In this document: piece by piece, positions 1 to 38,201 of the stretch
How positions within the stretch are numbered: position 1 is the first letter of the stretch
How the letters are laid out: the number at the start of each line of letters is the position of its first letter
Source of the DNA: a virus
Reading direction: 5' to 3' (one strand)
Virus record (IMG/VR): IMGVR_UViG_3300005253_000012
Span: 1 to 45,209 of that record
DNA length: 45,209 nucleotides
Made by a program: the position numbers and the translations under genes
Notes under the pieces: model-generated
What the model saw: only the letters and a program-made list of their open reading frames with translations
The model's database searches: none
Told to the model about the DNA's origin: nothing

Positions 1-121
1 TGGCAGAAGATGGGGCTCGGGATCTTGGGTACTCCAGATGGGCACTACCCGGTGTTGGCTGCTCGAGACTTCAACGTAGAGATTCTCAAGGGGTTCACCG
101 AGGTATGGAGGGCCGGCGAAA
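1..121. repeat. Left copy of 121-bp terminal direct repeat (circular contig overlap)
   Basis: Bases 1-121 are identical to bases 45089-45209. The reading frame of the giant gene runs through the join without change (43052 to 45088 is exactly 679 codons, then continues at base 1). This is what a circular or circularly permuted molecule gives when an assembler leaves one word-length overlap. The repeat lies wholly inside a coding sequence, which argues against a biological terminal repeat. Confidence 0.95.
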
Positions 122-3100
122 GCACACGGAGCGTACTGGAGACAGTTCAGCAGCTATTCGGTCACGAGAGCATACGGGAGACGGTGACGCAACTCCGAGA
201 CTACGGGGATGCGAGCTGGAACAAGCTGCAAGAGGCTGTGCGTGTGGGTGTGGGCGAAGGAGACGAAGGAGCAATCAACGTTGCCCGAGCTATCGACAGC
301 CGGTTGCTGACCAAGCAGACACTAGACAGCGCCCTCAAGAGTGCCTACGATGGTCGAACCCCGCTGACGCTCGATCACTTTCGTTGGATCGTGTACGATG
401 CGTGGCTGCAACATGTTGGTGACTGGTCTATAAAAGCCTTCAATGTGGAGATCGAGCCCATGTTCTATCGGCTGAGCAACGCAGTCAAGCAGGGTGCCTC
501 GATCGTGCTGCTCGACGGCAACCCCGGCTACCTGTACGCAAACTTCTGGAACAACACATCGACGACCGCCATTGACGGATCCATGGGTTTCAACAGCATA
601 GCTCGCATTGTGGACTACTTTGAGAACACATTAGGTTTTTCACCCAGCAAACTCGAGCAGGCATTCGGTGGTATAGCGGGCACGTTGGGAGAGGCCGGCC
701 TGGTGACATCAGAGCACCTCGCTGCGATGTCCTTTGCCGAAGCAATAGAAGCCGGCATACCTGAATTAGCGTGGGCCAAAGCAAGAGAGGCGGCCACATT
801 TCAAAAGCTCAGCGAGAAAACCATGGGGCAGGGCGCAATCAAGATGCTTGATCGCACTCTGGGCAGCCTTCGACAAAAGACAGGCCAAGAGGGACCCGGC
901 AAATGGAGCCCACTGATCATGTCCCGGCTGAGTGCAGGAATCGAGAGGCTACAAGGCGCCAACTCATACTACATAGGTACGAGGTCATGGCTCAACCGAG
1001 CGTGGCGGCGGGCCATTGGCTTTGACAAGCTGCCAGATGGAATAGAGTCAGCCTTGGGTCCTGAGCTGCTTGAGAAGGTCTACGGAATGGTCGAGGGCAA
1101 CTTGAAATACGAGCTCATCGAGAAGTCTTTGCTGGGCGATGGGCGCCTTGAAGCGAATGTACAGCAATTTGCGGGGCTCGTGGCTGACGCCATGGACAAT
1201 CGAGTGAATGCAGCAGACGTAGTTCAAATGCTTACAGACACCGACATCTTGCCCGTGCTGGAGGCTGAGCTCCCCAGAGCCAGGACAGCAGGCGACATCC
1301 ATATCATCTTCGCCGACATCGAAAACCAGATGCGAGGGTACATCAACCAAGTGCACGCCATGGAGCTTATTACCAAGGCGGGCGAGGTTGGTGAGGCAAT
1401 CAAGATGGGGGATCTGACGGGCGTCCATGACACCTGGGTAGATCTCAACGCACGCATGGCCGAGTGGTGGACGAGCCACGTCCTTGAGTGGGGCAACATG
1501 GTGGAAGAAGCCGACTTACTGGTGGGCGAGGGCTTTTCGGATGCGGCCAACGCTCTGTATAAAGCCCGCCTAGAGACAGCCAAGGCAGAGGCTACCCGGA
1601 TCATGGAGATGCAGACAGCCGTGATAGATGGCCTGGTGCAAGGGCTGAACGAGTCAGGCGTAGAGGTAGGCCCCAAGTACGCTCTGGGAATGAGACTGCA
1701 AATTGCAGAGCGGGCTAAGTTCTTCGAGATCAGGGACGCACTCTGGGAGGGCTACGGTGATGCCCGGAATGATGGCACACTGGAGACCGGGCGGTACGTT
1801 GAGATCATTGACGAGCTGGCAATCAGATACGACAGGCTGGCTGCCGACGAGATGGACCTGCAGCAGATCATGGATGCTGAGATAGTGTCGGCCACGGCCG
1901 ACGTGAACCTGCGTGCAGCTACTGTATTGTCGTCTCTGCTTGACACTATCCGAGAGCACCAGGCTAAGATATTCACCCAGGAAGCGGCAGTAAGGACAGC
2001 AGCCCATGAGCTATGGAACCTCACGACTGGTGCTGAGGCTGCCAATGTCCTGATGCGCAACTTTGCCGGACACCCCGAGCTGGCCAAAGCATTCGACACC
2101 TTAGTGAAACGATGGAAGCAGCGCACTACCGAAGTCACGCCTAGGGATCTGAGATCCTTCCGGCGCCAGGTGTATGACGTGTGGAGCAGGGACGTAAAGG
2201 TTGAGCACATCAAAGACTACTACCTGCTCAGGTCCGAAGGGATGCTTGAGGTTATGTCCGAGGATGCCAACGTGCGGCCGCCGGACGTTGAGAGACCGGA
2301 ACCTGTCAGGGCCACCACTGAGAGTACAGGGTCTGAGGCCGAGGTCGCTCGGGCAGTAGAGCTGGTGGAAGGTGGCACACCTCCCGAGGAGGCGACACGG
2401 ATAGCATCTGAGCAGATCGCCGGGGAGACGATGGACGTGGACTACAGCAAAGCCACCACAATCGAGGAGCTGCGCATGCGAGCCAACGATGCTGGTATAG
2501 CGACAGCGACCCGAGACGGGAAACCGTTTGATGGCCACCTGCTCAACGTTCTGAATAAAGACCTGGGGCTAAATGACAGTCCGATGAAGCTCAGGCGCTT
2601 AGGGGATCTGGTTGACATCCAGCGCGAGGGCGGGGGACCGACTGACGCCATGGATGCTGCTCGTCAGGCGCTAGTCAACCGGGGAGCGAAACGGCTGCAG
2701 TGGAGGCAAGAGAGCCGGATTGTAAACCTAAGCATAGAGGCATTGACAACCTTAGACGATGGTATTGACAACGTTGGGACCAAGAAGCTCCGTAGGATAG
2801 CAGAAGCCAACGGCCTAACCGAAGCCAACCTAATGCCCAAGGAGGCTCTGTGGTCGTGGATGGACAGCAGGAGAAACCGTCTCCGACCCGTCCCTTTTGA
2901 AGCGGCCACGCCCGAAGCCCTAAAGCTCCAGATCAAAGAAGCCATGGATAGGACAGGTTATCCGGGCTCCGAGATTGCCGACGCCACACTAGCTACTTTA
3001 GAGGCCAGGGCCAAGGCGATCGGCATGACGGTAGGCGAGTACATCGAGTTCCGCTATGGGCTCGACAACCCCGACATTATCTACACCTTCTCCCAGATGG

Positions 3101-6100
3101 AGGGCCGGCCCGAGAGCCCGTGGATTCAGAGGGCTCGGCAGATATTCGATATCAGATCTGACATAAAGCAAGTGGAGACGGGGTGGCTGCTAACGAACGG
3201 CGACATTGTTGAAATGCTCGAGGCCCATGCGGAGATAGGGAGAGTATGGGGAGAGGGTGAGACCAGCGTGGCGTCAGTCGAGAAGTTCCTCGAGACAGGC
3301 GCCGTGCGGTACGGTCTCTACGGAGGCCCCATTCCTGGGAAGCCCGGCATTGTCGCCATAGAGTTCAAAAGTCTGCCGTCCGCCATGCAGAGAGTCAAGC
3401 TCTCAACGCTCATGGAAGGGAACAAGGGCTACGTGGTGGAGTTTCGGTCGCTATCCGGCAAGGACATCCAGACCTTAGTCAACCAGGATTTTCCCACCAG
3501 ATCCCAGATCCAGGGTATGTGGCGCCAGATGATACAGGCGGCCGAGCAGCACACCACCACCTTCTTCCAAGATGCCGACGCTCATAGGCCCTTCTACTCG
3601 CAAATGATCAGGGTGATTGACGCCAAGATGCCGGAGAGGATGCCGGTCGGTGACTTCCTCAACTTCCTAAAAAACAATGGCGTGAAAGCCGACGAGCTCA
3701 AATGGAGCGGGATCGAGGAATATGCAAGGGGGCTGGAGGGAGGCATAGATCAGCCATCGGGTGTCTTTGCTGGTCCCGAGCCTGTGATAGAGAAGTCAAC
3801 GGCTCTGGCCGTCGCTCGAGACCTGACTCCCCTGGTGAAGGAGACCCTCTATCCCGTTGAGCCTACGCCGATACAGCGAGCCGATACATCATGGAGAACC
3901 GAGATCCCTCGTGAGCAGTGGATGGGGGCGGATGTAGGTCATCCCAATCTTGATGCAAGGCCAAGAGCTTTGTGGGCAGGCGGCTTCGACAGTCGTGTGG
4001 TCGACGTTGCTGCCGTCCGGTTTGTAGACAATCCAGGCGCTGGCGCCACCTACGTCGTACACGAATTCATAGGAGGACCGCCAGAGGCACCGTACCCCGA
4101 CATAATGGGCACAGGTCGATTCTTGTTGGAGCAACGTAGCACCGGAGATGTTGTTCGGGCCGACCCCGATCCTTTGACCGGCGCCCCTGATGTGGGGAAA
4201 GCACGGCAGATGATGTTCGACACATTGGAGAACGCCAAGGCCTACGCCGAAGCCATACCTTACGAGACCACAACACAGCGTGCCCAATGGGAGAATGTCA
4301 CCTACCCAGGAGGAACCAACTATCGAGAGGTCGTGCTACATCTGCCTCCGAGAGCGGAGACGGTCCGGGGACTCACAGACAAGATCAACGGCGTGTTCCG
4401 AGTAGAAGTATCAGGGGAAGGCAAGATCGCAGATCCACCGGGGGACCCAGTGGCAGTTCTTGGCCTAGAGCTAATCAGAAGAAACTACACAGGTGACGAG
4501 TTCCCAGGCGTCCAGCAGGCAGTGGCGGAGCTCGATGCGTACGCCAGGATGCTAGGCTACGATCCAGCGTCGATCACGGGAGATTTTGAGACATATGCAG
4601 CCAATATAGATTACCAAAGCCCTCACTTCTCAGAGGTCAACACCATCGCCTTCCCTCGTCTCAAGGATCGCTTCACCGCAGATGGGCGCCGTATCCTATT
4701 CATCGAGGAGCTGCAGTCTGATTGGGGACAGCTTTGGAGAGAGCAGAGCGGCAGGCTTAACGTAGAGGCCAATCGCCAGCCTCCACCTATGCCCTGGCAG
4801 AAGACCTGGCACGAGTACGCAATGCGCCGGATCATGCACATGGCAGCAGAGGAAGGCTACGATGGCGTAGCGTGGAACACAGGCGAAGGGATGTTCCGCA
4901 CGGAGACGGGAGATTTTGCGGGGGAGGGCGCTGTCGACTTCCAGAGCATTGAGTGGAACGTGAGCGACATCGAGGAAGTAGGAAGCCTGACAATCATACG
5001 GCCTGATGAATTGGGAGAGCCGCAGGTAGCTCGACACGAGAACATCACAGCAGCCGCTGCAGAGACCATTCTAGGGCACGACGCATTCATGCAGCTTGTG
5101 AACAACGGAGAACGCTATGCCTTTGACGACGCAACTGGCACCCATCACTACGAGCTCGGATCAGATGACATAGAGGGCAATCGATACAACCGAATGCTCA
5201 AGGGGTTCAAGGGCTTCTACGATGAGATCCTACCCAGCTTTATGAAAAAAGAAGTCAAGAAGTGGGGGGCGCAGGTCGAAGATTTTGAGTTCGGAAGTGG
5301 CGTCACACTAGACGAAACTAACGTGCGGGGGCTAAGAGATCCGGTGACTGGGCAACCGAGGCTAACGCCCGAGCAGCTAAAGCAACTCGAAGACACGACC
5401 TATTCGCCCGGCCACGTGGTCTACATCACAGACGAGATGCGAGCTGGCACGGGACCCGAGTTCAAGCTATTCCAAGAGGCTAACGAGTTCACGCTCAGGG
5501 ACAACGAGCTTACTGCCCGCCGGGCACTACTCGAGGTTATCAGGCAAGAGGAGCTACCCACCCAACCCTTCTACGAGATGGTGGGAGAAGGTAAGCCACT
5601 TGCTGACGTACTTGGCAAGGAGTGGGCAGGGCTAGACGTTCCCAAGTCAGTTCTGGATGCACACATTGTGTGGGAGGAAACACTCAGAGCAGGCCAGTGG
5701 CTCGACGGACAACGCAACATGACCGCAGAGCCGAAGGGTGCAGTGGCCATAGGCCGAGACGGCCGGGCACTCATGCGCTTCTTCAACAATGCCGACCCGT
5801 CGACTGCGATACACGAGGTAGGTCACATCTTCCGTCTGGATCTACAGCCTAGCGAGCTGGGCGTGGTCACGGATTGGCTAAGGAATACTGTACGAAAGCA
5901 TGACGGCGTGGACGTGTCCAAGGTGGAGGTGTTCGAGGGCAGGTTCACTGGCGACGAGGGTGTGCCCCGTGCAGCAGAAGAAGCATTCGCTCGTGGGTTT
6001 GAGAGGTATGTGTCCGAGGGCATAGCCCCGACAGAGGCGCTGCGCTCCGTATTTGAGAAGTTCAGGCAGTGGCTTCTGGGGATCTACCAACAGATCAAAG

Positions 6101-9100
6101 GCAGCGGCATTGACATCCCGCTCAACGAAAGCATGAGAGCTCTATTCTCGGACATGATGGGAGGGAGAGCACCGGACTTCGACATCTACAACACAACCTG
6201 GAAGTCTATCGAGACGGACTCTGTCATCAGGGGGCAGCCGGAGGTAGCGGGCATTCCGCCGCTAGCAACACCTGTATTGGATGTGCCGCCATCGACCCGT
6301 GTGGGAGGGGTAGAAGGCGGCATAACTTCTGCTCATGGTGCAGATCCGAACGTGAGCTACGACTTCCGATACAGAATTATGGACATCTCTGAGATCACGC
6401 CGTCGCATACGCTCGAGGGAAAGCTATCCGAAGGCTACCCCAAGAAGCTGCAGCCTAGAGACCGCAGCCGGGCTGCCAGTGTGAGACAGTCACAGCAGAT
6501 AGCGGCTGAGCTCAATCCAGTCACCCTCCTTGAGCCCAACGTCAGGATCGACGAAGGATCTCCGATCATTGGGCCCGACGGTCTAGTAGAGTCCGGCAGT
6601 GGGAGGATAAATGCCCTCGTACTGGCAATGGAACAGCACCCCGAGGGTTACGCAGCATACAAGCAGCTACTGCTTGACTACGTGCGGGAGGGAACCTATG
6701 GCGACATCGATGTCGCACAGATCCCCGACAATCCGGTGCTTATCAGAGAGCGCCTGACAGAAATGGATCGATTTGAATTTGCCAGGGTCGCCAATGAGTC
6801 TGCTATCCTGGGCACGAGTGCGGCCGAGCAGGCCCTGATCGACACAGGTAAGGTCAGCGACCAGATGCTAGCGGATCTTGTCATCAGCGAGGGGCAGACC
6901 GCGCAGGATGCGCTCAAAGCGCAGGCCAACCAAGGGGTAGTCAGGGAGTTTGTCAATCAGTCTCCGAGGTCCGAGCATGCAATGCTGATGACAAGCGACG
7001 GACAGATTACCCGTCAGGGCATGGATCGATTGCTTGCCGCCATCTTCATGTACGTGTACGGCGACGAGACGGGTAGCCTCCGCCTGGCAGAGACCGTCTT
7101 TGAGTCGACGGATCCGGTGATCAGAAATATCACTAACGGCATGATGGGTGCCGCTGGCGACATGGCCAAGGCAGAGGCATTGATACGATCGGGACGCAGG
7201 CCGCCTGAGTTGTCGCTGATGAGGGACCTGGCGCCAGCCGTTGAAACACTCGAGGGCTTGAAGCGTCGTGGCATACCCCTGGAGGACTTCACTGAGCAAC
7301 GATCTTTTGAGGAGATGGGTGTTGCGCTATCCGAGTTCCAGACTGAGATCCTTATTGACTTGGAGTTAGGAAAGCGCTCAGCCAAGGCCATACGAGACCA
7401 GCTACAGACGTATGCCCGCATGGTCATTCAAGAGCCGGACACAGGGCAGATGGGGCTGCTCGGAGCACACAAATACCCGACCGCCCAGGAGCTGTGGGTT
7501 CGAGCCAAAGAAAGTCCAGCGTCCACCGCCGAGCTATTCCAGTTACCCGAGCAGTACAAAATGCGAGGGCACTTCGATCAGACACCCGGCATCAAAGAGA
7601 ATGCATCCAAATCATCAGAGGGTTTGCGCAACATGCTCGGTATCCTCGACGAGGTGAGAGAGCAGATGACAGGCCCCGAGGGCTTCCTGCAAGAGATCAG
7701 GAGCGAAGACGTGAGAGGGCGCTTAGCACCTGATCAGCAGGCCGAGTTCCAGAAGTGGACAAAGGATCTAAAGGGCCAGCTCACCGGCACGAAATTCTCT
7801 GGTATGAAGTGGGGTGAGGAGACACGTAACTTCTCAATGCTGGACTACACTGCACTGAGGGGGATCGATCTAGGATTTCTTGGCCCCGTAGCTAACTACT
7901 CGTTCTGGCCAACTCGAACCCTGATGCGATGGGCGTTGAGATTTATGGAGTACCCAGCGCTGTTGGCAAACTACGCTCGTCTGAACGAGGCCCGGCGCAA
8001 GCAAGAGGAACGACCAGGCTTCCCAAGAAGGTTGCAAGGCAAGGTCTACATGCCGTTACCGTGGATGCCGGAGTGGATGGGTGGTGGGCTGTGGATTGAT
8101 CCCATTCGGCAATTCTTCCCTCCACATATGTTCCTTGACAATCTTGATCGAGTAGCCACGGCAGCGAACCGAGAGCACAAGCGAGCTACCTACATCTTGC
8201 AGAAGTGGGTAGAGAATGGGGACACACACCCCAGAGACGCACAGGAGGCCATTCAGACGAAGACCGGGCCGCTGTGGCAGATGGCCATCGACCAGGCCAA
8301 CTCCGAGATGGAGCAAGAGTTCAAGGATCCCTTGGACTACATGAATATCGTGACATCGCTCTCGCTCCCTCTCAGCATCGGTCACGAGATTGCCCGGGGT
8401 ACGCCTGAGCGCATTCAGCCAGTGCCATTGACTCGCTACACCAAGACAGCGACGAGCATGTTCTCGCAGATGACAGGCATTGGCCCTCCAGAGGGCATCA
8501 ATCTGGAAGGGCCTATCAGGGAGTTCTTCGACCTACCCAACTATGATCGCTTCGAGGACTATCGAAACGAACGGATGCTGGCCAGCATGGCAGCGGACGA
8601 TCCGAGCATTACACGGGATGCGTTGATTGCCGGCATCGAGAAGGAAGGACCGCTACATGACGAGTCTATACGGCGGGTCAATAGCGCTCGCAACTTCGGC
8701 ATCTATGCCAACCCGGCTTTCTGGGTCTTCGGTCTGGGGGGAGACACGTTCCCGACCGGGGAGGTACGCCAGCGTAAGCTCGGTGAGGAGTTCGGTCTCG
8801 CAATCACAGCCAGGGAAGTAGGCGACAGCACTGCAATCAATCGCTTCTTCGAGAAGTATCCAGAGTACGAGACTCGACTGGCCAGCTTTGACAGCCCCGA
8901 GGAACGGATGCGTTTCTTCCTGGTCGACGAGGTATGGGTCAGGTATCGAGAGCTAGGATCCGCCAACAAAGAGCTGGCACGCAATCAGCTAGGTCAGGAC
9001 TTCTACGATCTGTTCCTGAACAAAGAGACTCGGAGCTATGCGGACATACCGCTTGAGCACCTAGCGTCGTGGGCTCATCTGTTGGGTGGCTACGTGCCCG

Positions 9101-9642
9101 AGAACGCAGAGAACCGGATCGAATACAAGGAGCTGGCACCGCCACTCAATCAACTCCCGCCGGAATACGCCGACATCATTGACACGTTCCGAGAGCAGCG
9201 CAACGTGAAGTTCCCCAACTGGTTTGCGGTGCAGAATCGCTACTTCGCAGCCGGCCCGGCCAAGAGCCAGGCCCGCAAGGATTACCTTGCGGAGTGGCCT
9301 GAGCTCGAAGCCTATTGGGATTGGCGAGAAGACCAGCTCGAAGGTAACGAGTTCTTGAAATCCTACTACCGACGCTACGATCTGGAGAACTATGAGGCCG
9401 GGTCTCTGGGCAGCCTGGGCGTGGCGGAGATACTGACCAACCCCATACTGGTGCGGCAGCTTATGGCCGATCGCTACGGCGGACAGTCCCTCACCACTGG
9501 TGCTCTGGCGGAGCTGCGTCGGATCTATGAGCTCCTGCAGTCGCCAGGCGGAGACTTCAAGGAGTGGATAGACGGGCTTGAGTTCGAGCAGGGCATTGAG
9601 CAGCAAGGGCAGCCAGGCGCCGGGGGGCTGGGCCTGCCATAG
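1..9642 (+). CDS. Giant polyvalent-type virion protein, C-terminal 3,213 of 3,892 residues
   Basis: This is the continuation of the gene that starts at 43052; an ATG at base 10 is internal and not the start. Numbering in the full protein: a SAP-like stretch near 1490-1550; a module at about 2115-2445 with EELQSDW, then WHEYAMRRIMHMAAEEGYDG and a GFYDEILPSF block, a combination I know from very large phage proteins; HEVGH at 2617-2621 after FNNADPSTAI, a zinc-metallopeptidase (gluzincin-like) signature; a DdrB-like ParB superfamily region about 2800-3080 (SGSGRINALVLAMEQHP, MDRFEFARVANES); a Trp/Pro-rich LPD38-like region about 3280-3500. Such domain strings define the polyvalent proteins of phages and conjugative elements, thought to enter the new host with the DNA and to counter defences. 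It lies between portal and scaffold genes, so a virion role is likely. Catalysis and processing are inferred. Domain edges are estimates by eye. Confidence 0.85.
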   Translation, partial: WQKMGLGILGTPDGHYPVLAARDFNVEILKGFTEVWRAGESTRSVLETVQQLFGHESIRETVTQLRDYGDASWNKLQEAVRVGVGEGDEGAINVARAIDSRLLTKQTLDSALKSAYDGRTPLTLDHFRWIVYDAWLQHVGDWSIKAFNVEIEPMFYRLSNAVKQGASIVLLDGNPGYLYANFWNNTSTTAIDGSMGFNSIARIVDYFENTLGFSPSKLEQAFGGIAGTLGEAGLVTSEHLAAMSFAEAIEAGIPELAWAKAREAATFQKLSEKTMGQGAIKMLDRTLGSLRQKTGQEGPGKWSPLIMSRLSAGIERLQGANSYYIGTRSWLNRAWRRAIGFDKLPDGIESALGPELLEKVYGMVEGNLKYELIEKSLLGDGRLEANVQQFAGLVADAMDNRVNAADVVQMLTDTDILPVLEAELPRARTAGDIHIIFADIENQMRGYINQVHAMELITKAGEVGEAIKMGDLTGVHDTWVDLNARMAEWWTSHVLEWGNMVEEADLLVGEGFSDAANALYKARLETAKAEATRIMEMQTAVIDGLVQGLNESGVEVGPKYALGMRLQIAERAKFFEIRDALWEGYGDARNDGTLETGRYVEIIDELAIRYDRLAADEMDLQQIMDAEIVSATADVNLRAATVLSSLLDTIREHQAKIFTQEAAVRTAAHELWNLTTGAEAANVLMRNFAGHPELAKAFDTLVKRWKQRTTEVTPRDLRSFRRQVYDVWSRDVKVEHIKDYYLLRSEGMLEVMSEDANVRPPDVERPEPVRATTESTGSEAEVARAVELVEGGTPPEEATRIASEQIAGETMDVDYSKATTIEELRMRANDAGIATATRDGKPFDGHLLNVLNKDLGLNDSPMKLRRLGDLVDIQREGGGPTDAMDAARQALVNRGAKRLQWRQESRIVNLSIEALTTLDDGIDNVGTKKLRRIAEANGLTEANLMPKEALWSWMDSRRNRLRPVPFEAATPEALKLQIKEAMDRTGYPGSEIADATLATLEARAKAIGMTVGEYIEFRYGLDNPDIIYTFSQMEGRPESPWIQRARQIFDIRSDIKQVETGWLLTNGDIVEMLEAHAEIGRVWGEGETSVASVEKFLETGAVRYGLYGGPIPGKPGIVAIEFKSLPSAMQRVKLSTLMEGNKGYVVEFRSLSGKDIQTLVNQDFPTRSQIQGMWRQMIQAAEQHTTTFFQDADAHRPFYSQMIRVIDAKMPERMPVGDFLNFLKNNGVKADELKWSGIEEYARGLEGGIDQPSGVFAGPEPVIEKSTALAVARDLTPLVKETLYPVEPTPIQRADTSWRTEIPREQWMGADVGHPNLDARPRALWAGGFDSRVVDVAAVRFVDNPGAGATYVVHEFIGGPPEAPYPDIMGTGRFLLEQRSTGDVVRADPDPLTGAPDVGKARQMMFDTLENAKAYAEAIPYETTTQRAQWENVTYPGGTNYREVVLHLPPRAETVRGLTDKINGVFRVEVSGEGKIADPPGDPVAVLGLELIRRNYTGDEFPGVQQAVAELDAYARMLGYDPASITGDFETYAANIDYQSPHFSEVNTIAFPRLKDRFTADGRRILFIEELQSDWGQLWREQSGRLNVEANRQPPPMPWQKTWHEYAMRRIMHMAAEEGYDGVAWNTGEGMFRTETGDFAGEGAVDFQSIEWNVSDIEEVGSLTIIRPDELGEPQVARHENITAAAAETILGHDAFMQLVNNGERYAFDDATGTHHYELGSDDIEGNRYNRMLKGFKGFYDEILPSFMKKEVKKWGAQVEDFEFGSGVTLDETNVRGLRDPVTGQPRLTPEQLKQLEDTTYSPGHVVYITDEMRAGTGPEFKLFQEANEFTLRDNELTARRALLEVIRQEELPTQPFYEMVGEGKPLADVLGKEWAGLDVPKSVLDAHIVWEETLRAGQWLDGQRNMTAEPKGAVAIGRDGRALMRFFNNADPSTAIHEVGHIFRLDLQPSELGVVTDWLRNTVRKHDGVDVSKVEVFEGRFTGDEGVPRAAEEAFARGFERYVSEGIAPTEALRSVFEKFRQWLLGIYQQIKGSGIDIPLNESMRALFSDMMGGRAPDFDIYNTTWKSIETDSVIRGQPEVAGIPPLATPVLDVPPSTRVGGVEGGITSAHGADPNVSYDFRYRIMDISEITPSHTLEGKLSEGYPKKLQPRDRSRAASVRQSQQIAAELNPVTLLEPNVRIDEGSPIIGPDGLVESGSGRINALVLAMEQHPEGYAAYKQLLLDYVREGTYGDIDVAQIPDNPVLIRERLTEMDRFEFARVANESAILGTSAAEQALIDTGKVSDQMLADLVISEGQTAQDALKAQANQGVVREFVNQSPRSEHAMLMTSDGQITRQGMDRLLAAIFMYVYGDETGSLRLAETVFESTDPVIRNITNGMMGAAGDMAKAEALIRSGRRPPELSLMRDLAPAVETLEGLKRRGIPLEDFTEQRSFEEMGVALSEFQTEILIDLELGKRSAKAIRDQLQTYARMVIQEPDTGQMGLLGAHKYPTAQELWVRAKESPASTAELFQLPEQYKMRGHFDQTPGIKENASKSSEGLRNMLGILDEVREQMTGPEGFLQEIRSEDVRGRLAPDQQAEFQKWTKDLKGQLTGTKFSGMKWGEETRNFSMLDYTALRGIDLGFLGPVANYSFWPTRTLMRWALRFMEYPALLANYARLNEARRKQEERPGFPRRLQGKVYMPLPWMPEWMGGGLWIDPIRQFFPPHMFLDNLDRVATAANREHKRATYILQKWVENGDTHPRDAQEAIQTKTGPLWQMAIDQANSEMEQEFKDPLDYMNIVTSLSLPLSIGHEIARGTPERIQPVPLTRYTKTATSMFSQMTGIGPPEGINLEGPIREFFDLPNYDRFEDYRNERMLASMAADDPSITRDALIAGIEKEGPLHDESIRRVNSARNFGIYANPAFWVFGLGGDTFPTGEVRQRKLGEEFGLAITAREVGDSTAINRFFEKYPEYETRLASFDSPEERMRFFLVDEVWVRYRELGSANKELARNQLGQDFYDLFLNKETRSYADIPLEHLASWAHLLGGYVPENAENRIEYKELAPPLNQLPPEYADIIDTFREQRNVKFPNWFAVQNRYFAAGPAKSQARKDYLAEWPELEAYWDWREDQLEGNEFLKSYYRRYDLENYEAGSLGSLGVAEILTNPILVRQLMADRYGGQSLTTGALAELRRIYELLQSPGGDFKEWIDGLEFEQGIEQQGQPGAGGLGLP

Positions 9643-9697: not shown

Positions 9698-10462
9698 ATG
9701 CCAAGCCAATCAGACACGGACCCAACTGACACCACCGAGGCAGGTGGCGGATCTTCCAACAACCCGGCGGGACCGGGCGATCAGGGAGCAACCGACGAGC
9801 GGGACGGTAAGACCCAAGCGACGCTGGCAGATCTGAGCGCTCTGAAGGTTGAGTTCAAAGAAGGCTTAGCCACGCAATACCAGGGTGTTCAATCACTGTT
9901 AGACCGACAATCTGGAAACCTGAAGGCAGCACGAGAGCAGGTGGACCGACAGATCAAAGCCATGGAGGCTATGGGTATCGAGGTCACGCCGGCTCAGGCG
10001 GAGCAGCTAAAGCAAGACGAAGCAGTGCGGGCTCTGACGGCTGCTGAGGAGGAAGGCCCCGACGGTAAGCCTGTCCAGCCAGGACAGAAACCCGCCGAGA
10101 CCGCTCCTGCAGGTGAACAGACGCAAATGGGCAAACTGGCAATGGCCATGATGCAAGAGCAGGGTGTGGTGATTTTACCCACCGATATCGAGCTCGAGAA
10201 GATTGACCAAGAGACCAAGGATCCCAAGGTGTTCATGGACAGTATGCAAGATGCCATCGACGCCAAGATCCAGAGGCTCGCTAACCCAGACGCTACCGGC
10301 AACGGCGAAACCGAAACTGGTCCTCGGGTGAACCCGAGAGGTAAGGGCAGGAAGGCCAACACTGTTCTGCCGGAGAAGACCCCGAGCGGAGCACGGACCG
10401 GCAGCCTGGACTTCCTACAGACCGGGTACGAAGAGTCAGACAAGTTCCCATCCGGGGAATAG
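9698..10462 (+). CDS. Capsid scaffolding protein
   Basis: A 254-residue acidic, Gln/Glu/Lys-rich protein with no hydrophobic core, lying directly upstream of the major capsid gene as scaffolds do. The first 45 residues are low-complexity (Ser/Thr/Gly/Pro). A predicted helical, coiled-coil-like part runs about 50-120 and a second helical part about 145-200. The C-terminus ends in a short region after a basic RGKGRK patch, the usual place for capsid-binding residues. ATG 9698 is preceded by a GGAGG ribosome site. Scaffold proteins direct procapsid assembly and leave before or during packaging. The assignment rests mainly on position, length and composition, since scaffolds share little sequence. 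Confidence 0.75.
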   Translation: MPSQSDTDPTDTTEAGGGSSNNPAGPGDQGATDERDGKTQATLADLSALKVEFKEGLATQYQGVQSLLDRQSGNLKAAREQVDRQIKAMEAMGIEVTPAQAEQLKQDEAVRALTAAEEEGPDGKPVQPGQKPAETAPAGEQTQMGKLAMAMMQEQGVVILPTDIELEKIDQETKDPKVFMDSMQDAIDAKIQRLANPDATGNGETETGPRVNPRGKGRKANTVLPEKTPSGARTGSLDFLQTGYEESDKFPSGE

Positions 10463-10483: not shown

Positions 10484-11455
10484 ATGCCTTCGACACTAAC
10501 ACTTGCTGACTATGCTCAGCTTGCTCCCACCAATATCGAGCGGGGCGTCATTGACGTCTTCCGCAGAGAGTCATTCATCCTCGACAGCTTGGGCTTCGAG
10601 GCGGCTGGCGGATTGCAAAAGACCGTCATTCGATCGGCAGGTCTCCCAGCAGTGGGATTCCGTAAGATCGGTGAAGGCTGGAGCTCATCCAAGGCTTCCT
10701 TCGAACCCATCACGGAGAGGGTGTTCGATCTCGGTGGCGACATCGACGTCGACAAGCTCTTAGTCAAGGCTGATCCATCCCAGATGGGGAAGCACACTGA
10801 GGCGTTCGTTACGGCGATCTCCTACGAGTTCAATGACTACTTCATCAACGGCAGTCCTATCGTGGATCCAGATGGATTTACGGGCATTTGGTATCGCCTC
10901 GTGAATTACCTGTCATCTCGACAGACTGTTAGTGGATCAGGGGTAGACATCTCTCCTAATGCGGGAGCTGGCCTAGCGGCCAACTTCGACACCGTGCTCG
11001 ACCTTCTCGACGAGCTGGCGCATGTTGTTGATGGACATGCACCTGCGATGTTCGTTCTAAACGAGCAACTGTTCCTGCGACTCAACTCTGCATTACGGCA
11101 GAACGGGTTGTGGAGCCAGGATGAAAATTCCTTCGGCTTGCAGATCACTCGTTACGGCCCTTCGGGACCGGCGATCATCGATCTCGGCGTGATGGCGGAC
11201 CAAGTAACTCAGATCATCGGGAATTTGGAGCATGATGCAGGCTCCGACTTCACGAGCGGAGACGCTACATCCATCTATGCAATGCGCACAGGTGGAATGT
11301 ACCTCAATGGACTGCAGCTCTATCCGATGGATGTGAATCCAATCGGCCTGCTGCAGGACGGGGTGACCTACCGCACCGTAATCGACTGGCCCATGGGGAT
11401 CATGCACGAGAACCCTCGGGCACTGGCTCGAGCTGTTGGAATTGTGGCAGCCTAG
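10484..11455 (+). CDS. Major capsid protein (HK97-fold type)
   Basis: 323 residues, directly after the scaffold with a strong GGGAGGAAGG ribosome site. The pattern is that of podovirus-type HK97-fold capsid proteins: an N-terminal arm, an early helix with FRRESFILDSLGF, a phrase GFRKIGEGWSSSKASFEP typical of the E-loop side, a long central region with helix LDLLDELAHVVDGHA, then MFVLNEQLFLRLNSALR and a C-terminal beta-rich part ending near GVTYRTVIDWPMGIMHENPRA. It forms the icosahedral shell and is probably the most abundant structural protein. A terminator-like hairpin follows the next gene. The capsid identity is secure by pattern and position; the exact family is not. Confidence 0.85.
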   Translation: MPSTLTLADYAQLAPTNIERGVIDVFRRESFILDSLGFEAAGGLQKTVIRSAGLPAVGFRKIGEGWSSSKASFEPITERVFDLGGDIDVDKLLVKADPSQMGKHTEAFVTAISYEFNDYFINGSPIVDPDGFTGIWYRLVNYLSSRQTVSGSGVDISPNAGAGLAANFDTVLDLLDELAHVVDGHAPAMFVLNEQLFLRLNSALRQNGLWSQDENSFGLQITRYGPSGPAIIDLGVMADQVTQIIGNLEHDAGSDFTSGDATSIYAMRTGGMYLNGLQLYPMDVNPIGLLQDGVTYRTVIDWPMGIMHENPRALARAVGIVAA

Positions 11456-12043: not shown

Positions 12044-12517
12044 ATGCCACAAGCGACACCTGGAGCACGGAAGCTAGCCAAGGAGCTAGGCGTAGATCTG
12101 GACAACGTGCAGGGCTCAGGCAAGAGCGGCTACATCGTGGAGGCCGACGTAAGACGGATGGTGGTCAACGCCCCCAACGGCAGGCCCGAGCAAGGACCCC
12201 CATTCACTCACGAGATGAAAGAAGACTTTGACGGGGAAGTCTACCCGGTAAGCGAGCTGTATAAGATGCGCTTCCGGCAGGACGATCCTGTCACCGGAGA
12301 CATGGTGGGCGAGGATCTATTAGCGATCAGGCCCAAGGCGGCCGGCGGGAAGTTCCGATCCCATGACGGGGTACTGGGCTTCTTCGTAGCCGATCGAGGG
12401 TACTTCGGCGAGCCCGCAGAGGTCAAACCTAAAGACGAGCCCGACGAGACTGGGCACCGTCCCGCTTTATCGGAGCCTACAACTGACGCAGCAGACAGCT
12501 TCGCAGTATCCGAGTAG
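12044..12517 (+). CDS. Structural-module protein with N-terminal E3-binding (PSBD)-like domain
   Basis: 157 residues. Residues 2-38 (PGARKLAKELGVDLDNVQGS, then YIVEADVRRMV) match the peripheral subunit-binding domain of 2-oxoacid dehydrogenase E2 proteins: A/P-x-ARKLAKELGVDL, a short G-S-G-K-x-G-x-I turn and an EADV helix. This roughly 35-residue two-helix domain is a protein-binding unit. In a phage it probably docks a virion protein rather than a metabolic enzyme, because no lipoyl or acyltransferase part is present. The rest (about 45-125) is of unknown fold and the tail is acidic. ATG 12044 follows AAAGGAG. It sits between the cement and connector genes, so a minor head or neck role is likely. 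Confidence 0.65.
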   Translation: MPQATPGARKLAKELGVDLDNVQGSGKSGYIVEADVRRMVVNAPNGRPEQGPPFTHEMKEDFDGEVYPVSELYKMRFRQDDPVTGDMVGEDLLAIRPKAAGGKFRSHDGVLGFFVADRGYFGEPAEVKPKDEPDETGHRPALSEPTTDAADSFAVSE

Positions 12518-16789: not shown

Positions 16790-17371
16790 ATGGAACAGGA
16801 AGAACCAACCAGCGTGCTACTCAAACGTCAAAGCATCGAGGATCCACAGAAGGAGCCCTGGAAATACCTCACCACACTGTTGTGCCCCCAGATAAACCTG
16901 TATCGGGCCTTGGCTGAGAAGGACAAGATTGTCGGCTCAGTGCTCGAGGTCGGTTTCGGGACCGGAGCTCAGGTGGTGCAGTATGCACACAAAGCAAACT
17001 ATGTTGACGCCATCGAGGTCGGCATTGCGGCGGTGGCGTTTGCTAAGCTGGCGTGGCCCATACCCAGTGTGCACTGGCTCTATGGGGACATCTGCCTCTG
17101 GGACGCTCCGGATATGTACGACACCGTTCTGTGCTTCGAGGTGCTGGAGCACACGACAGATCCCGAGGCTGCCATCCGCAACATGGCAGCCACGCTTAGA
17201 CCGGGTGGCACAGCCCACCTAAGCGTGCCTCACAACGATCCCGGCGTTGAGCTGCACAAGTGGAGGTGGACGCCGGATGATTTCAGGGACGATCTCCTGG
17301 TGTACTTCAAGCAGGTAAAAGTGAAGGCGTCCGGCCGTCTGATCTTTGCGGAGGCTAGTGCCAATGCTTGA
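16790..17371 (+). CDS. Class I SAM-dependent methyltransferase
   Basis: 193 residues with the Methyltransf_11-type core: motif I VLEVGFGTGAQVVQYA (about 47-62), an acidic end of strand two (AIEVG), a GDICLWDAPDMYDTVLCFEVLEH block carrying motif IV, and RPGGTAHLSVPHNDP as motif V/VI. This family methylates small molecules, lipids or proteins more often than DNA, and there is no DPPY-type motif, so the substrate is unknown. ATG 16790 follows CTGGAGGTGG. Its last codons overlap the start of the HNH gene by eight bases. It sits between tail and lysis genes. Confidence 0.8.
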   Translation: MEQEEPTSVLLKRQSIEDPQKEPWKYLTTLLCPQINLYRALAEKDKIVGSVLEVGFGTGAQVVQYAHKANYVDAIEVGIAAVAFAKLAWPIPSVHWLYGDICLWDAPDMYDTVLCFEVLEHTTDPEAAIRNMAATLRPGGTAHLSVPHNDPGVELHKWRWTPDDFRDDLLVYFKQVKVKASGRLIFAEASANA

Positions 17372-17795
17372 CTGCATTGAGTGGGAGGGTGCCACGCAGG
17401 GGGACGGATACGGGGCAAGACGAATTGATGGAGTGTTGCATTCCGTTCATCGGCTGGCCTGGCAAGAAGCCAACGGACCAATCCCTAGCGGCCTGCAAGT
17501 GCTACACCATTGCGACAACCCTCCCTGTCATAACCCCGACCATCTATTTTTGGGGACTCAGTCCGACAACATGAGAGATTGTTTGGCTAAGGGTCGGCAC
17601 GCCTCCGGCCATATGGTTGGCGAGAACCACGGAATGTCCAAATTGACGGAGGAGCAAGTTCGATATATCAAAGAGATCAAGGTCACAAGGCCATACACGG
17701 GAGTGCTGGGTCGAGCCGCAGACGAGTTCGGGGTAGCAAGGGGCACGATAGACGCCATAAGAAGCGGAAGGAATTGGAAGCATGTTGGAGCTTAG
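17364..17795 (+). CDS. HNH endonuclease with C-terminal HTH (homing-type)
   Basis: 143 residues from ATG 17364, which overlaps the methyltransferase stop; a TTG 18 bases earlier is a poorer choice. The HNH core is VLHHCDNPPCHNPDHLFLGT (about 47-66), with the His pair at 48-49, the two Cys residues, and Asn57/His60. Upstream HRLAWQEANGPIP is the usual first strand/helix. The C-terminal part (LTEEQVRYIKEIK, then AADEFGVARGTIDAIRSGRNW) is a DNA-binding helix-turn-helix of the kind found in free-standing homing endonucleases. Such genes are selfish and move between phages by cutting a target without the gene. It lies inside the late operon and overlaps the endolysin start by 14 bases. Confidence 0.85.
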   Translation: MLDCIEWEGATQGDGYGARRIDGVLHSVHRLAWQEANGPIPSGLQVLHHCDNPPCHNPDHLFLGTQSDNMRDCLAKGRHASGHMVGENHGMSKLTEEQVRYIKEIKVTRPYTGVLGRAADEFGVARGTIDAIRSGRNWKHVGA

Positions 17796-33914: not shown

Positions 33915-33932
33915 GAGATACGTGCTACCATG

Positions 33933-33958
33933 GAGCCCTCAGACGAGGGCTCTTTTTC
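33933..33958 (+). terminator. Rho-independent terminator with built-in ribosome site
   Basis: GAGCCCTC (33933-33940) pairs perfectly with GAGGGCTC (33945-33952), loop AGAC, then TTTTTCT. This is the clearest terminator in the window. The GAGGG of the 3' arm is also the only ribosome site for the ATG at 33960, one base after the U-run. Confidence 0.8.
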
Positions 33959-33959
33959 T

Positions 33960-34337
33960 ATGGCGGAAGAAAAACTAATCATCACGGAAGAGGATGCAAA
34001 CAACGCTGTTGGCTTCCGCATTGATGACATAAAGGAGTTCGACTATGAGCTGCGTCAGAGCGGCGGAGGTACGACGCAGCTTCTCGTGCTAACGCTGGCC
34101 GATCGCACGGTGACGTTCAGTGGCGCCGAGGCTACGACGGTGTACGCCACGATCAAAGACTCGTTCAGCGAGGGCGGTGCAGATGCCTCGCCAGCGCCAA
34201 TCGAGACCACACAAGCGAGCATAGATGTAGCGACGCAGTTGATAGCTGAACTGCAGAAGGCTCTATCAGCGGTGGCGGGTGGCGTGTTCATCCGGGTAGG
34301 GACTGACGGCACACCAATAGAGATGGACGCAAGCTAG
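33960..34337 (+). CDS. Short fibre-N-terminus paralogue
   Basis: 125 residues from ATG 33960; an in-frame ATG at 33930 lies inside the terminator stem region and has no ribosome site. It starts MAEEKLIITEEDANNAVGFR and is homologous along its whole length to residues 1-120 of the next protein: the strand-rich part (TTQLLVLTLADRTVTFSGAE), the phrase IKDSFSEGGADASPAPIETT and the final AVAGGVFIRVGTDG. It then stops, where the neighbour continues into the fibre shaft. It is either a stub left by recombination, or a separate adaptor protein for the fibre base. Ends one base before the neighbour's GTG. Confidence 0.7.
   Translation: MAEEKLIITEEDANNAVGFRIDDIKEFDYELRQSGGGTTQLLVLTLADRTVTFSGAEATTVYATIKDSFSEGGADASPAPIETTQASIDVATQLIAELQKALSAVAGGVFIRVGTDGTPIEMDAS
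34143..34207 (+). repeat. 65-bp perfect direct repeat, copy 1 (copy 2 at 34526-34590)
   Basis: The two 65-base segments are identical and lie at matching codons of the two neighbouring fibre genes, 383 bases apart. The flanking DNA has diverged (for example synonymous changes on both sides), so the repeat is either under strong constraint or was renewed by recombination. Confidence 0.9.
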
Positions 34338-35653
34338 TGGCAGAAGAGAAACTAATCATCGTCGAGGAGGACGCCACGAATGCAGTAGGTTTTCGTATTG
34401 ACGACATCAATGATCTAACCTACGAGGAGCGTCAAAGCGGAGGGCTAGGTACGATCCAGCTACTAAACTTAGAGCTGGGGAGCGGCAAGAGGGTATCATT
34501 CAGAGGGGCCGAAGCAGTAACGGTCTACGCCACGATCAAAGACTCGTTCAGCGAGGGCGGTGCAGATGCCTCGCCAGCGCCAATCGAGACAACCCAGGCT
34601 AGCATACTGACACAGATGGAGCTGATAGATGACATGCGTGACGCTCTCTCGAGCGTGGCGGGTGGTGTATTCATGCGGATCGGGACGGACGGAGTACCGC
34701 TGAAAGTAACGATAACCGGAATAGATCACAACATTCTCGACGGCGACGTACATGGCGACAGCGTGGCCGATGCTGTTACTCAGGGTTCGCTTGTCGTCGG
34801 AAACGCAACCCCGAAATGGGATGAACTTATTTTAGGCGCAGATAATGATGTCCTGGCCAGCGACGGATCGGATCTTGCTTATGAAACGCTCGCTTCGCTT
34901 TTGAAAGCGACCCTATTGACCTCCGATGGGGATCTGCTTGTCAGGACTGGAGGAAACGTAACCCGATTGGCGGCGGGTGCGGCCGACGAGCTTTTAGCAA
35001 TCTCCGGCGGAGATCCGACCTGGGTAAATAAGATCAGCCGTAAACAATTTATAACTAACTATCCGACCTATTTCAAAGATTGGCGTGATTTAGTTGGTTT
35101 TACAGAGGCGCACTCAGGTACAGGTGCATTTACGGCCGGGTTTATGTTCGGAACGATCAAAACAGGAACAACACTAAACTCGGAAGGAATTATTCATTCA
35201 ACCGATCACTTTTGGGTACTTACTGGCACGACAGCATTTATCACACAGTTGTTGACTAGAATAAATATTGACACTGTTGTTACTAATTCACTGATATGGA
35301 TTGGCATGTTCGATAATCAAACTGCACCGACTGCAACCGAGGAGCATATAGGTTGGAAGATATTGAATGGCGATTTATTTGCTAGCTGTGGAAATGGATC
35401 AGATGGAAACTTAGAAGATACCGGAGTAGACATTGTGGCGTTTGGTACATATGACCTATATATAAAGAACACACCCAATAAGGTTGAATATTATGTCAGT
35501 AATGTTCTAAAGGCTACCTTCGAAACCAACCTACCTACATCGGGATTTGAGCTTCATATTACTTACTATGTGAAAACGACGGATACGGTTAGTAAGCAGT
35601 TCAAAACATTTCCGTTCTGGCTGACACACGGACCTAATGTAGACTTTGACTAG
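34337..35653 (+). CDS. Tail fibre/tailspike protein with AT-rich receptor-binding domain
   Basis: 438 residues from GTG 34337. Residues 1-120 are the module shared with the previous gene and probably bind the virion. Residues about 130-230 are the repetitive shaft (DHNILDGDVHGDSVADAV, GSLVVGNATPKWDELILGAD, GDLLVRTGGNVTRLAAGAAD, ELLAISGGDPTWVNK) typical of fibres. From about 240 to the end a beta-rich jelly-roll or lectin-like domain follows (HSTDHFWVLTGTTAFITQLL, HIGWKILNGDLFASCGNGSD, KVEYYVSNVLKATFETNLPT). G+C falls to 30-40% in this part (I counted 18, 23 and 24 of 60 bases in the lines at 35041, 35161, 35341) against 40 of 60 at 36721, so the tip was probably acquired by transfer. It should set host range. 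Confidence 0.8.
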   Translation: MAEEKLIIVEEDATNAVGFRIDDINDLTYEERQSGGLGTIQLLNLELGSGKRVSFRGAEAVTVYATIKDSFSEGGADASPAPIETTQASILTQMELIDDMRDALSSVAGGVFMRIGTDGVPLKVTITGIDHNILDGDVHGDSVADAVTQGSLVVGNATPKWDELILGADNDVLASDGSDLAYETLASLLKATLLTSDGDLLVRTGGNVTRLAAGAADELLAISGGDPTWVNKISRKQFITNYPTYFKDWRDLVGFTEAHSGTGAFTAGFMFGTIKTGTTLNSEGIIHSTDHFWVLTGTTAFITQLLTRINIDTVVTNSLIWIGMFDNQTAPTATEEHIGWKILNGDLFASCGNGSDGNLEDTGVDIVAFGTYDLYIKNTPNKVEYYVSNVLKATFETNLPTSGFELHITYYVKTTDTVSKQFKTFPFWLTHGPNVDFD

Positions 35654-35990: not shown

Positions 35991-36410
35991 ATGGCCAAGC
36001 AGCTAACGAGAAAACAGCAAAGACTATGCGAGATCATCGTCAGTCACCCCGAGTTCAGCCACGAGCAGGCTGCAGTTGAGGCCGGCTATCAGCTATCGGG
36101 CGCACGGGGCCGGGCATCCTACAACCTCCGCCAGCCCCATGTCCGGCGTTATATCGACGAGCTGCGCAAGATCCTACTGCCGGCACTCAACAGAGAGAAC
36201 GTGGCATTCAGGCTGCAGGAGATTATCGAGATCCCACTTGAAGCCCACAACTTCAACCCCAACGCCAGGGTCAGTGCTGCTCGAGAGGTCGGGCGCATGT
36301 ACGGATGGGGCAAGGAAGAAGTACACCACACACACGAGCTCGAAGGACTCGAAGACTTCACTGTTGTCTTTCACACAGAGGACGAGGTAGACGACGGTGA
36401 AAGCTCTTGA
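35991..36410 (+). CDS. terS: Terminase small subunit
   Basis: 139 residues. The start LTRKQQRLCEIIVSHPEFSH then EQAAVEAGYQLSGARGRASY and NLRQPHVRRYIDELR is the Terminase_2 pattern: helix-turn-helix of the A-A-x-x-A-G-Y type followed by the L-R-x-P-x-V-x-x-Y-I linker. A central helical part (LQEIIEIPLEAHNFNPNARV, AAREVGRMYGWGKEE) would make the oligomer ring. The end is acidic (HTEDEVDDGES), the part that usually contacts the large subunit. It recognises the packaging site. The gene overlaps terL by 14 bases. Confidence 0.85.
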   Translation: MAKQLTRKQQRLCEIIVSHPEFSHEQAAVEAGYQLSGARGRASYNLRQPHVRRYIDELRKILLPALNRENVAFRLQEIIEIPLEAHNFNPNARVSAAREVGRMYGWGKEEVHHTHELEGLEDFTVVFHTEDEVDDGESS

Positions 36411-37809
36411 CTTTCTCAAGCTAGCGAAGTTCACTCCGAAGCAGCTCATAGCATGGTGGAAGATCTATCCCGGCAGCGAGGGGAAGGGTAAGCGCTTCCT
36501 GCTATACGGCGGCGCCAGGGGAGGCGGCAAGTCACGCTTCCTACGATGGGCACTGCTCGGGCTGCTGATCTACTGGGGCAAGATCAATAAGCTCAAGGGC
36601 GTGAAGGTGGTGCTGTTCGCAGAAGACTACCCAACGCTGACCGACAGACAGATCGGCCCAATGCAAGACGAGTTCCCCAAGTGGCTGGGAGAATTGAAGC
36701 GCACCCAGGCAGACGGGCTCGGCTTCCACCTGCGACCCGAGTGGGGCGGCGGACACCTGCTACTGCGAAACATGGGTGAGGACATCAGCAAGTACAAGTC
36801 TGCAGAGTTCGCAGCTATAGCGATCGATGAGCTCACCTTCTGGGATTACAGCGAGTTCGAGATACTGCGTGGATCCTTGCGATGGGCTGGCATAGGACAG
36901 ACTATCTTCCTGGCAGCCACCAACCCTGGAGGCAAGGGCCATCTGTGGGTGAAGGACCTGTGGATAGATAAGAAGCTGACCAGGCACCCCGAGCTCGAGC
37001 CCATCTTTCAAACGTTCGACTTCGTGCAGGCTCTACCGACAGACAACCCCTACCTCGAGCAGACCTACTGGGATGACCTGGCTACACTATCCGAGCAGCT
37101 CAAGAGGGCGTGGCTGTACGGAGACTGGACTGTGTTTGAGGGCCAGGTCTTCACCGAATGGAACCCACTCATTCACACCTGCGATCCGTTCAACATCCCC
37201 GAGGACTGGCCGAAGTGGAGAGGCATCGACCCCGGCTACACGGCGCCGGCATGCACGCTATGGTTTGCAATGAACCCCGAGATGGGCAGGATCTATGTCT
37301 ATCGAGAGGCATACGGGCCAGGACGCAGCGACGAGGCCATGGCCAAGGTCATAGCTGAGTGGAGCAGGGGCGAGACCTACCAAATGAGCTACGCAGATGG
37401 GTCTCTATGGGTGGCATACAAGACTCAGCAAGCAGGCTACACCAGTGGGTACGATGTCTTTATGAGTCAGAAGCCACCTATCCTTATGGAGCCTGGCAAC
37501 AAACAGCGGATCAATGGCAAGCGCAAGGTACATGACGTGCTCGGCAAGCTCAAGGATGGCGGGCCAGGCGTCGTGTTCTTCAAGACCTGTGTCAACCTGA
37601 TCCGCACGCTGCCGGCGCTGCCCTACTCCAAGAAGGCGGGCAAACTCGAGGACGTGGACACTGACGCAGAGGATCACGCCTATGACGCATTCAGGTACGG
37701 ACTGACGAGACTAGCGCCCGAGAGCAGAAGGGGAGATAATGATAAAGCCGACCCAGACACAGCGAAGTGGGTGGCACAGCAAGAGCGACTAGCGGCAGCA
37801 TTTGGATGA
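36397..37809 (+). CDS. terL: Terminase large subunit
   Basis: 470 residues from GTG 36397. ATPase domain: Walker A GGARGGGKS (38-46), adenine/coupling strands VVLFAEDYPTLTDRQ, Walker B IAIDELTF with D144-E145, then the coupling phrase FLAATNPGGKGHLW. Nuclease domain (RNase H fold): first Asp in WRGIDPGYTAPACTLWFAMN (D278), further acidic residues in QMSYADGSLW and DTDAEDHAYDAFRYGL at the end. It pumps DNA into the procapsid through the portal and cuts the concatemer. All motifs are intact. The type of packaging (cos or headful) is not visible from the protein alone. Confidence 0.93.
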   Translation: MKALDFLKLAKFTPKQLIAWWKIYPGSEGKGKRFLLYGGARGGGKSRFLRWALLGLLIYWGKINKLKGVKVVLFAEDYPTLTDRQIGPMQDEFPKWLGELKRTQADGLGFHLRPEWGGGHLLLRNMGEDISKYKSAEFAAIAIDELTFWDYSEFEILRGSLRWAGIGQTIFLAATNPGGKGHLWVKDLWIDKKLTRHPELEPIFQTFDFVQALPTDNPYLEQTYWDDLATLSEQLKRAWLYGDWTVFEGQVFTEWNPLIHTCDPFNIPEDWPKWRGIDPGYTAPACTLWFAMNPEMGRIYVYREAYGPGRSDEAMAKVIAEWSRGETYQMSYADGSLWVAYKTQQAGYTSGYDVFMSQKPPILMEPGNKQRINGKRKVHDVLGKLKDGGPGVVFFKTCVNLIRTLPALPYSKKAGKLEDVDTDAEDHAYDAFRYGLTRLAPESRRGDNDKADPDTAKWVAQQERLAAAFG

Positions 37810-38088: not shown

Positions 38089-38201
38089 CGAGAAGGTTCA
38101 GCCCTTCTCTCGGAGCACTCGGATGAGATGGTGGATCAGGCACATACTGTGGGCATGGAAACAATTACGTGCACGTCGACGTAACGAGAGGAAGGGCACG
38201 C

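Follow-up and report, generated by a model that had tools for sequence, protein, structure and literature searches.

The IMG/VR virus record IMGVR_UViG_3300005253_000012, analysed here over its whole length of 45,209 nucleotides (the window), carries within its virion module a gene for a giant protein of the polyvalent kind. We propose that this giant is probably an ejected, podovirus-type internal virion protein, in which a constant delivery chassis bears exchangeable cargo that a zincin-like domain of the same chain probably releases. Its relatives in uncultured phages have constant ends and a variable middle, the zincin-like domain accompanies long middles, and the proteins nearly lack cysteine. 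The initial annotation of the window had placed a protein of polyvalent type within a virion module, and this reading stands; it had also taken the order of three domains as a hallmark, which the family does not bear out, and the half upstream of them as a possible store of effectors, which for most of that stretch it does not bear out either. As far as we searched, the division into chassis and cargo, the link between zincin and cargo, the prediction of a GNAT-like EELQSDW module and the near-total absence of cysteine, resembling that of ejection proteins, are new.

The giant protein and its relatives

An exact direct repeat of 121 bases at both ends of the record (1-121 and 45089-45209) indicates that the record is circular or terminally redundant. 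Joining the terminal repeats produces a single open reading frame (ORF) of 3,892 amino acids (aa) on the plus strand, as are its modules and the terminase, portal, scaffold-like and capsid genes below, running from 43052 through base 1 to 9642. Its N-terminal part (43052-45209, residues 1-719) remains open to the end of the record and begins with an ATG, 12 bases 5' of which starts the Shine-Dalgarno-like sequence aaggag; the remainder, read across the repeat to residue 3892 and the stop codon, occupies 1-9642. We number residues on this joined ORF and call its part at 1-9642 P0001. The EELQSDW motif (4705-4725, P0001 residue 1569), the HEVGH motif (5812-5826, P0001 residue 1938, giant residue 2617) and the ddrB-ParB region lie where the initial annotation had placed them, in one frame, with chance excluded for each. 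The approximately 2,100 residues that it counted ahead of this string hold only if the record is read as circular, EELQSDW then being at residue 2248.

The string-bearing part of the giant matches PHROGs 5143, 2299, 14693 and 9880, all without a function, and a sequence search of P0001 against the PDB gave no match. In a tblastn search of 50,697 phage records, residues 1-719 and the following 1,450 residues had no match, the rest of the giant matched P1 DdrB-type regions, and the C-terminus matched that of podovirus ctptF532 at 31% identity.

A single-protein scan with the string region found no viral contig, and the C-terminal part was then taken as bait. The alignment of this C-terminal domain (CT) found 38 loci in viral contigs, which together with the window and ctptF532 make up the 40 giants analysed here. 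Thirteen of them are cut at the 5' end, and near-identical pairs (L021/L036, and L013/L036 with 94% identity in CT) are kept in the counts; L021, L041 and L042, being partial or divergent, were excluded from the CT alignment. The giants from uncultured phages have a common backbone, formed by an N-frame (residues ∼99-1264) and the all-helical CT (7879-9570, residues 3306-3869). In the window, the first part of the N-frame (43346-45208) comprises modules N1, N2 and N3, with N2 (∼43820-44140) being a glycine-rich hydrophobic stretch. The second part (1-1755) comprises an NPxY/LPD38-like module at ∼376-678 and a helical module, Hel, extending to ∼1755. LPD38 itself scores below its cut-off of 27 bits in the window protein (E 0.0038, 17.8 bits), and Gly-zipper Pfam families matched one member each in the first set of 14 giants scanned. 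A census of the 40 giants with iterated hidden Markov model profiles built from window segments found N1 in 11, N2 in 22, N3 in 27, NPxY in 28, Hel in 31, a SAP-like module in four, M1 in six, EELQSDW in five, zincin in 24 and DdrB in 14; CT, as the search bait, is present in all 40 by construction. CT belongs to no named family and has no fold match in the PDB or BFVD, and profiles of CT and the N-frame had no convincing match among PDB sequences.

The middle of the protein, between Hel and CT, ranges from 300 to 3,322 aa in the 30 giants that retain both backbone ends. The CTs of giants L020 and L030 share 73% identity, yet their middles of 538 and 2,924 aa differ by 2,386 aa. A Pfam scan of 27 other giants (E 0.01) detected ddrB-ParB in six, ART-PolyVal in six, GGDEF in four, the Strawberry-notch-type Helicase_C_4/AAA_34 in three, SLT in three, and PBECR5, LPD1, LPD3 and LPD5 in one each; these are counts only, with the member identified just for L028 (ART) and L010 (ddrB-ParB). 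The order EELQSDW-zincin-ParB, considered a hallmark in the initial annotation, occurs in only four of the 40 giants. Similarly, the residues upstream of the string, suggested to hold new effectors, consist over their first ∼1,260 positions of conserved backbone that is also found in nearly cargo-free relatives. Only residues ∼1265-2000 are candidates for additional modules, and a part of them, module M1 (2761-3933), is a companion that travels with EELQSDW; the same region holds a small module at 2464-2616 without a Pfam match, named SAP/Rho-N-like by eye only. The presence of the backbone in cargo-poor relatives and the variability of the middle indicate that most of the long stretch before EELQSDW is shared chassis, with the polyvalent string as just one cargo among many.

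Zincin-like domain

The zincin-like domain of the window protein spans 5731-6168, and its region P0001 1920-2047 matches phrog_9880 (9.8e-17). In 23 aligned family rows, HExxH retains its first His and its Glu without exception and its second His in at least 90%. Two downstream Glu residues, 52 and 59 residues past the last His in window numbering (codons 5980-5982 and 6001-6003), are also invariant in these rows. The AlphaFold2 model has a predicted local distance difference test score (pLDDT) of ∼84-95 in the zincin part. HEVGH, which the initial annotation had expected in a helix followed by a third zinc ligand, occupies model positions 505-509 in a confidently predicted helix (500-514, pLDDT ∼92-95), and both Glu lie on helix 555-573. 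A conserved downstream Glu could serve as the third ligand. The zincin profile had no convincing match among PDB sequences (best, oligopeptidase A, E 0.085), in hhalign comparisons with N4 gp50 and P1 DdrB the alignment was confined to the HExxH helices, at a probability below 4%, and the VIA-align matches listed for the model were taken up by the EELQSDW domain.

The presence of the zincin follows the length of the middle: all 21 giants whose middle reaches 864 aa or more have it, and the nine whose middle is 553 aa or shorter all lack it (Fisher 7e-8 over the 30 giants, kinship ignored). This association favours a service role in freeing the cargo, as proposed for polyvalent proteins generally by Iyer and colleagues (PMC5512222). 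The zincin thus most likely cuts the chain to release the cargo.

Cysteine content

The window protein contains no cysteine in 3,892 residues. The 40 giants together contain four in 104,411 aa, where ∼906 would be expected from the neighbouring ORFs (the 417 further ORFs of 100 aa or more at these loci hold 1,049 cysteines over 120,846 aa). Three of these four cysteines lie in doubtful N-terminal extensions, and one in the fragment L041. By region, in 30 giants, cysteines number two in 29,564 aa of the N-frame, none in 38,808 aa of the middle and none in 19,797 aa of CT. Tryptophan makes up 1.98% of the giants, indicating that codons starting with TG are not avoided.

The same scarcity is seen in EELQSDW-bearing ORFs of other phages. 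The module occurs in at least 508 viral contigs, from which 80 ORFs were kept, one of them with CT. Trimmed to their starts, they hold 13 cysteines in 105,622 aa (73 of 80 cysteine-free), and 34 in 105,982 aa when read from stop to stop (58 of 80 cysteine-free); their neighbours hold 480 in 51,060 aa. Similarly, the ejection or internal virion proteins T7 gp14-16, N4 gp50-52, P22 gp7, gp16 and gp20, and phiKMV gp35-37 together contain one cysteine in 10,280 aa, and the other virion and packaging proteins fetched from these four phages contain 98 in 15,218 aa. The three P22 proteins are reported to be injected (PMC8402733), and for phiKMV gp35-37 the assignment to the virion interior comes solely from annotation.

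EELQSDW and ParB modules

The EELQSDW module (4306-5472) has no Pfam name: its 32 aligned rows gave no consistent Pfam family match and no GNAT was listed, and its profile had no convincing match among PDB sequences. Its structure was predicted from alignment A8, after exclusion of the mixed alignments A5 and A7, in which EELQSDW rows were misplaced on other domains. In the VIA-align comparison of the predicted model, acetyltransferases and GNAT-type toxins account for nearly all of the 50 chains listed, which align over one model range (3-391) with Z from 8.8 to 6.9 over 102-126 residues at 2.8-4.8 Å. Five rows, the top one among them, show isocitrate lyase 2 or its fragment Rv1916, and here the alignment falls on a C-terminal part that we take to be GNAT-like. 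This is moderate evidence, drawn from a predicted model, that the fold of the module resembles that of GNAT acetyltransferases. The acyl-CoA loop of GNAT enzymes has the sequence Q/RxxGxG/A after strand 4; this canonical motif is absent at the expected place, after the strand preceding EELQSDW, where the family has QSDWHQxGR. We therefore term the module GNAT-like and do not file it as a GNAT member. That the match reflects merely a common alpha/beta arrangement is rather doubtful to us: the best match (Z 8.8, 3.0 Å over 120 residues) is near the level of chance best matches and the best Foldseek hit is not significant (E 0.012), which together with the missing loop and Pfam family speaks for such a coincidence, but the uniformity of the listed chains over a single range speaks against it. 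Two RimI-like GNAT families are listed in polyvalent proteins by Iyer and colleagues (PMC5512222). Giant L030 contains two EELQSDW modules (residues 1284-1613 and 2338-2740), which flank its zincin.

The DdrB-type module (6307-7527) contains a Pfam ddrB-ParB core at 6352-6753. The match of PF18763 to P0001 2118-2251 (E 7.1e-24, 84.7 bits) is well over the curated cut-off of 27.6 bits, as expected from the ParB-type region named in the initial annotation, and the ParB region of P1 DdrB aligns with the window module at 35.8% identity. An active-site arginine has been described for the DdrB-like ParB domain (PMC5512222).

Comparison with known systems

The giant shares with the polyvalent proteins described by Iyer, Burroughs, Anand, de Souza and Aravind in 2017 (PMC5512222) the combination of several unrelated activities in one chain, the repertoire of ddrB-ParB, zincin, ART, PBECR5 and LPD domains, and genes located beside terminase-portal virion genes. 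In the window protein the disparate domains are the ddrB-ParB detected by Pfam, the zincin-like domain and the EELQSDW module, and the gene stands beside the late virion genes of a terminase-portal phage. The giants differ in that the cargo lies between two constant ends without named families, and in that cysteine is almost absent throughout the family; the main text of PMC5512222 nowhere uses this word.

The N4 virion RNA polymerase (vRNAP) gp50 is an ejected chain of 3,500 aa with an HExxH domain (PMC12633501), and it resembles the giant in its similar length, its large helical C-terminus and its lack of cysteine (none in 3,500 aa). Unlike gp50, the window protein has no RNA polymerase Pfam match, and a profile link between CT and gp50 is absent (hhalign probability 0.2%). 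P1 DdrB also combines a DdrB-type ParB with HExxH in one chain, but it is 995 aa long, has the reversed order with ParB first, and contains two cysteines. P1 is not a short-tailed phage. A further relative is UOF79210.1 of podovirus ctptF532 (MW202608, Manatee Spring), which has the same gene order, a CT with the identity given above, the NPxY and SAP-like modules and no cysteine; at 2,156 aa, and without zincin, EELQSDW and ParB, it differs from the window protein as a nearly cargo-free backbone.

Proposed function and alternative explanations

In the mechanism we propose, the N-frame, with its glycine-rich hydrophobic stretch, and the helical CT would form a constant delivery chassis, which probably keeps the giant in the virion and conveys it through both tail and cell envelope. 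The middle would be exchangeable cargo acting on the new host; in the window it would comprise the GNAT-like EELQSDW module as a candidate acyltransferase and the DdrB-type ParB module as a candidate nuclease or anti-restriction unit. The zincin would cut the chain after entry or during maturation, freeing the cargo. The loss of cysteine would fit a chain crossing unfolded through an oxidising envelope or the cell exterior without forming disulfides. Such an arrangement would allow the carrier to be told apart from its cargo among phage proteins of a kind for which injection is mainly deduced. It points to a constant chassis of ∼1,200 + 600 residues able to take up enzymes of very different kinds, and adds a fold hypothesis for a widespread domain.

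Several points weigh against this proposal. We infer the packaging and ejection of the giant, and no link of CT to a known podovirus ejection protein was found by PHROG matches, by fold comparison with the PDB and BFVD or by profile comparison with N4 gp50. A few of 36 CT members weakly match transglycosylase, lytic tail and tape-measure PHROGs, and the P1 tape measure is likewise free of cysteine, which would be expected if the giant were a structural or tail-type protein, similar to a tape measure or tail lysin, that carries polyvalent domains and stays with the particle. We consider this improbable: the gene lies between the portal and the scaffold and capsid genes and not in a tail module, most CT members match no PHROG, tape-measure families included, and the cargo families are intracellular enzymes. 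The release of cargo by the zincin is more open to dispute. Tyr replaces the second His of HExxH in L014, and L026, a 5'-cut giant outside the 30, carries cargo but shows no zincin in its visible 4,053 aa. The N4 vRNAP has a zincin and yet is reported to be packaged uncleaved, whereas P1 DdrB is reported to be cleaved before packaging (PMC5512222). An uncut chain in which the zincin is an effector against host proteins, as the other cargo domains are effectors, is accordingly a serious possibility, if the less probable one. With the exception of L026, the zincin accompanies long cargo and is absent otherwise, whatever other domains are present, which fits the release of cargo better.

The meaning of the missing cysteines also has to be weighed. 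Virion proteins of these phages tend to be somewhat poor in cysteine: the other ORFs with 600 aa or more hold 199 cysteines in 27,136 aa, and the portal, the capsid and several small virion proteins of the window phage have none. An effect of lineage or composition, uninformative on ejection, would account for this. We find it an unlikely explanation for the giants, which are ∼190-fold under the rate of those large ORFs, the more so as EELQSDW-bearing ORFs of other phages are equally poor and the ejection proteins of unrelated phages are also nearly cysteine-free. At the same time, cysteines are present in injected proteins of P1 (nine in the 2,255 aa of DarB, two in the 995 of DdrB, one in the 639 of DarA), in the candidates e15 gp14-17 (five in 2,574 aa) and those of crAss001 (seven in 7,478 aa), and in the giant of a provirus, L129 (four in 3,311 aa); besides the P1 tape measure, N4 gp56 and gp57 have none. 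The host lead presented below is a further difficulty: Chloroflexota are regarded as mostly monoderm, so an argument based on the periplasm may not apply as such. Plasmid homologues of P1 DarB had been intended as a comparison with conjugation, but the search recovered mostly P1-like records and was set aside. Since some injected proteins contain cysteine and some non-ejected ones do not, near-absence of cysteine supports ejection without proving it, as a mark that is not absolute. We lean slightly towards a broader statement, that phages, and short-tailed phages in particular, as a rule exclude cysteine from the proteins for which their own envelope channel is the route of ejection. If this is true, ejected proteins, including large effector arsenals such as the present giant, would be recognisable from sequence alone, and the injection claimed for phage polyvalent proteins would become a prediction open to checking in one phage after another; the mark could also help to compile candidates for injected proteins from uncultured phages. 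Cysteine exclusion as a mark of ejection was not found in the open-access literature searched, which does not show its absence from print.

Genome neighbourhood and host lead

The position of the gene in a virion module, as claimed in the initial annotation, is supported by PHROG matches for terminase and capsid, and for the portal by synteny with homologues that match phrog_64. The terminase large subunit (36397-37809; phrog_2, E 6e-34) is followed by a 610-aa ORF (38169-40001), the inferred portal protein, homologues of which lie upstream of the giant in 21 of 43 loci. The window's own ORF matched no PHROG or Pfam family; three of seven homologues tested match the phrog_64 portal (best 6.3e-9). 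Directly downstream of the giant are a scaffold-like ORF (9698-10462), with homologues in 34 of 43 loci, and the major capsid protein (10484-11455; phrog_212, E 8.3e-39). Of the 36 loci whose sequence continues for 2,400 bases or more past the giant, 31 have a capsid homologue in that stretch; none was detected in L002, where a capsid was annotated by the depositors, L009, L014, L026 and L038.

A CT pattern scan of genome contigs, a set described as covering 84,980 species, recovered three loci, all in metagenome-assembled genomes (MAGs) named Chloroflexi/Anaerolineales, and the giants of all three carry the zincin. Two of the loci lie within contigs of 248 and 130 kb and are flanked on each side by common bacterial genes (class I tRNA synthetase, HypF and NiFe hydrogenase; iron hydrogenase, RNA polymerase large subunit and MurJ), indicating that the giants there are in proviruses. 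A search of 400 Chloroflexota genomes gave a strong CT match only to G002 itself, plus one weak partial match (E 2e-4), which suggests that carriage is rare. These results provide a host lead to Chloroflexota for the giant family, and not for the window phage itself. L128 and L129 are proviruses carrying the giant in Chloroflexota MAG contigs; few phages are known from this phylum.

Elsewhere in the window, a small ORF just 3' of the capsid gene (12044-12517) matches the Pfam family E3_binding (PF02817, E 5.5e-14) over residues 3-37. This is the peripheral-subunit-binding domain of 2-oxo-acid dehydrogenase complexes and is unexpected in a phage head region. A methyltransferase-fold ORF (16790-17371) overlaps an HNH_3 endonuclease ORF (17346-17795). 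Two adjacent ORFs at 33930-35653 share an N-terminal stretch of ∼124 residues with 71% identity, corresponding to a tandem duplication of an N-terminal module.

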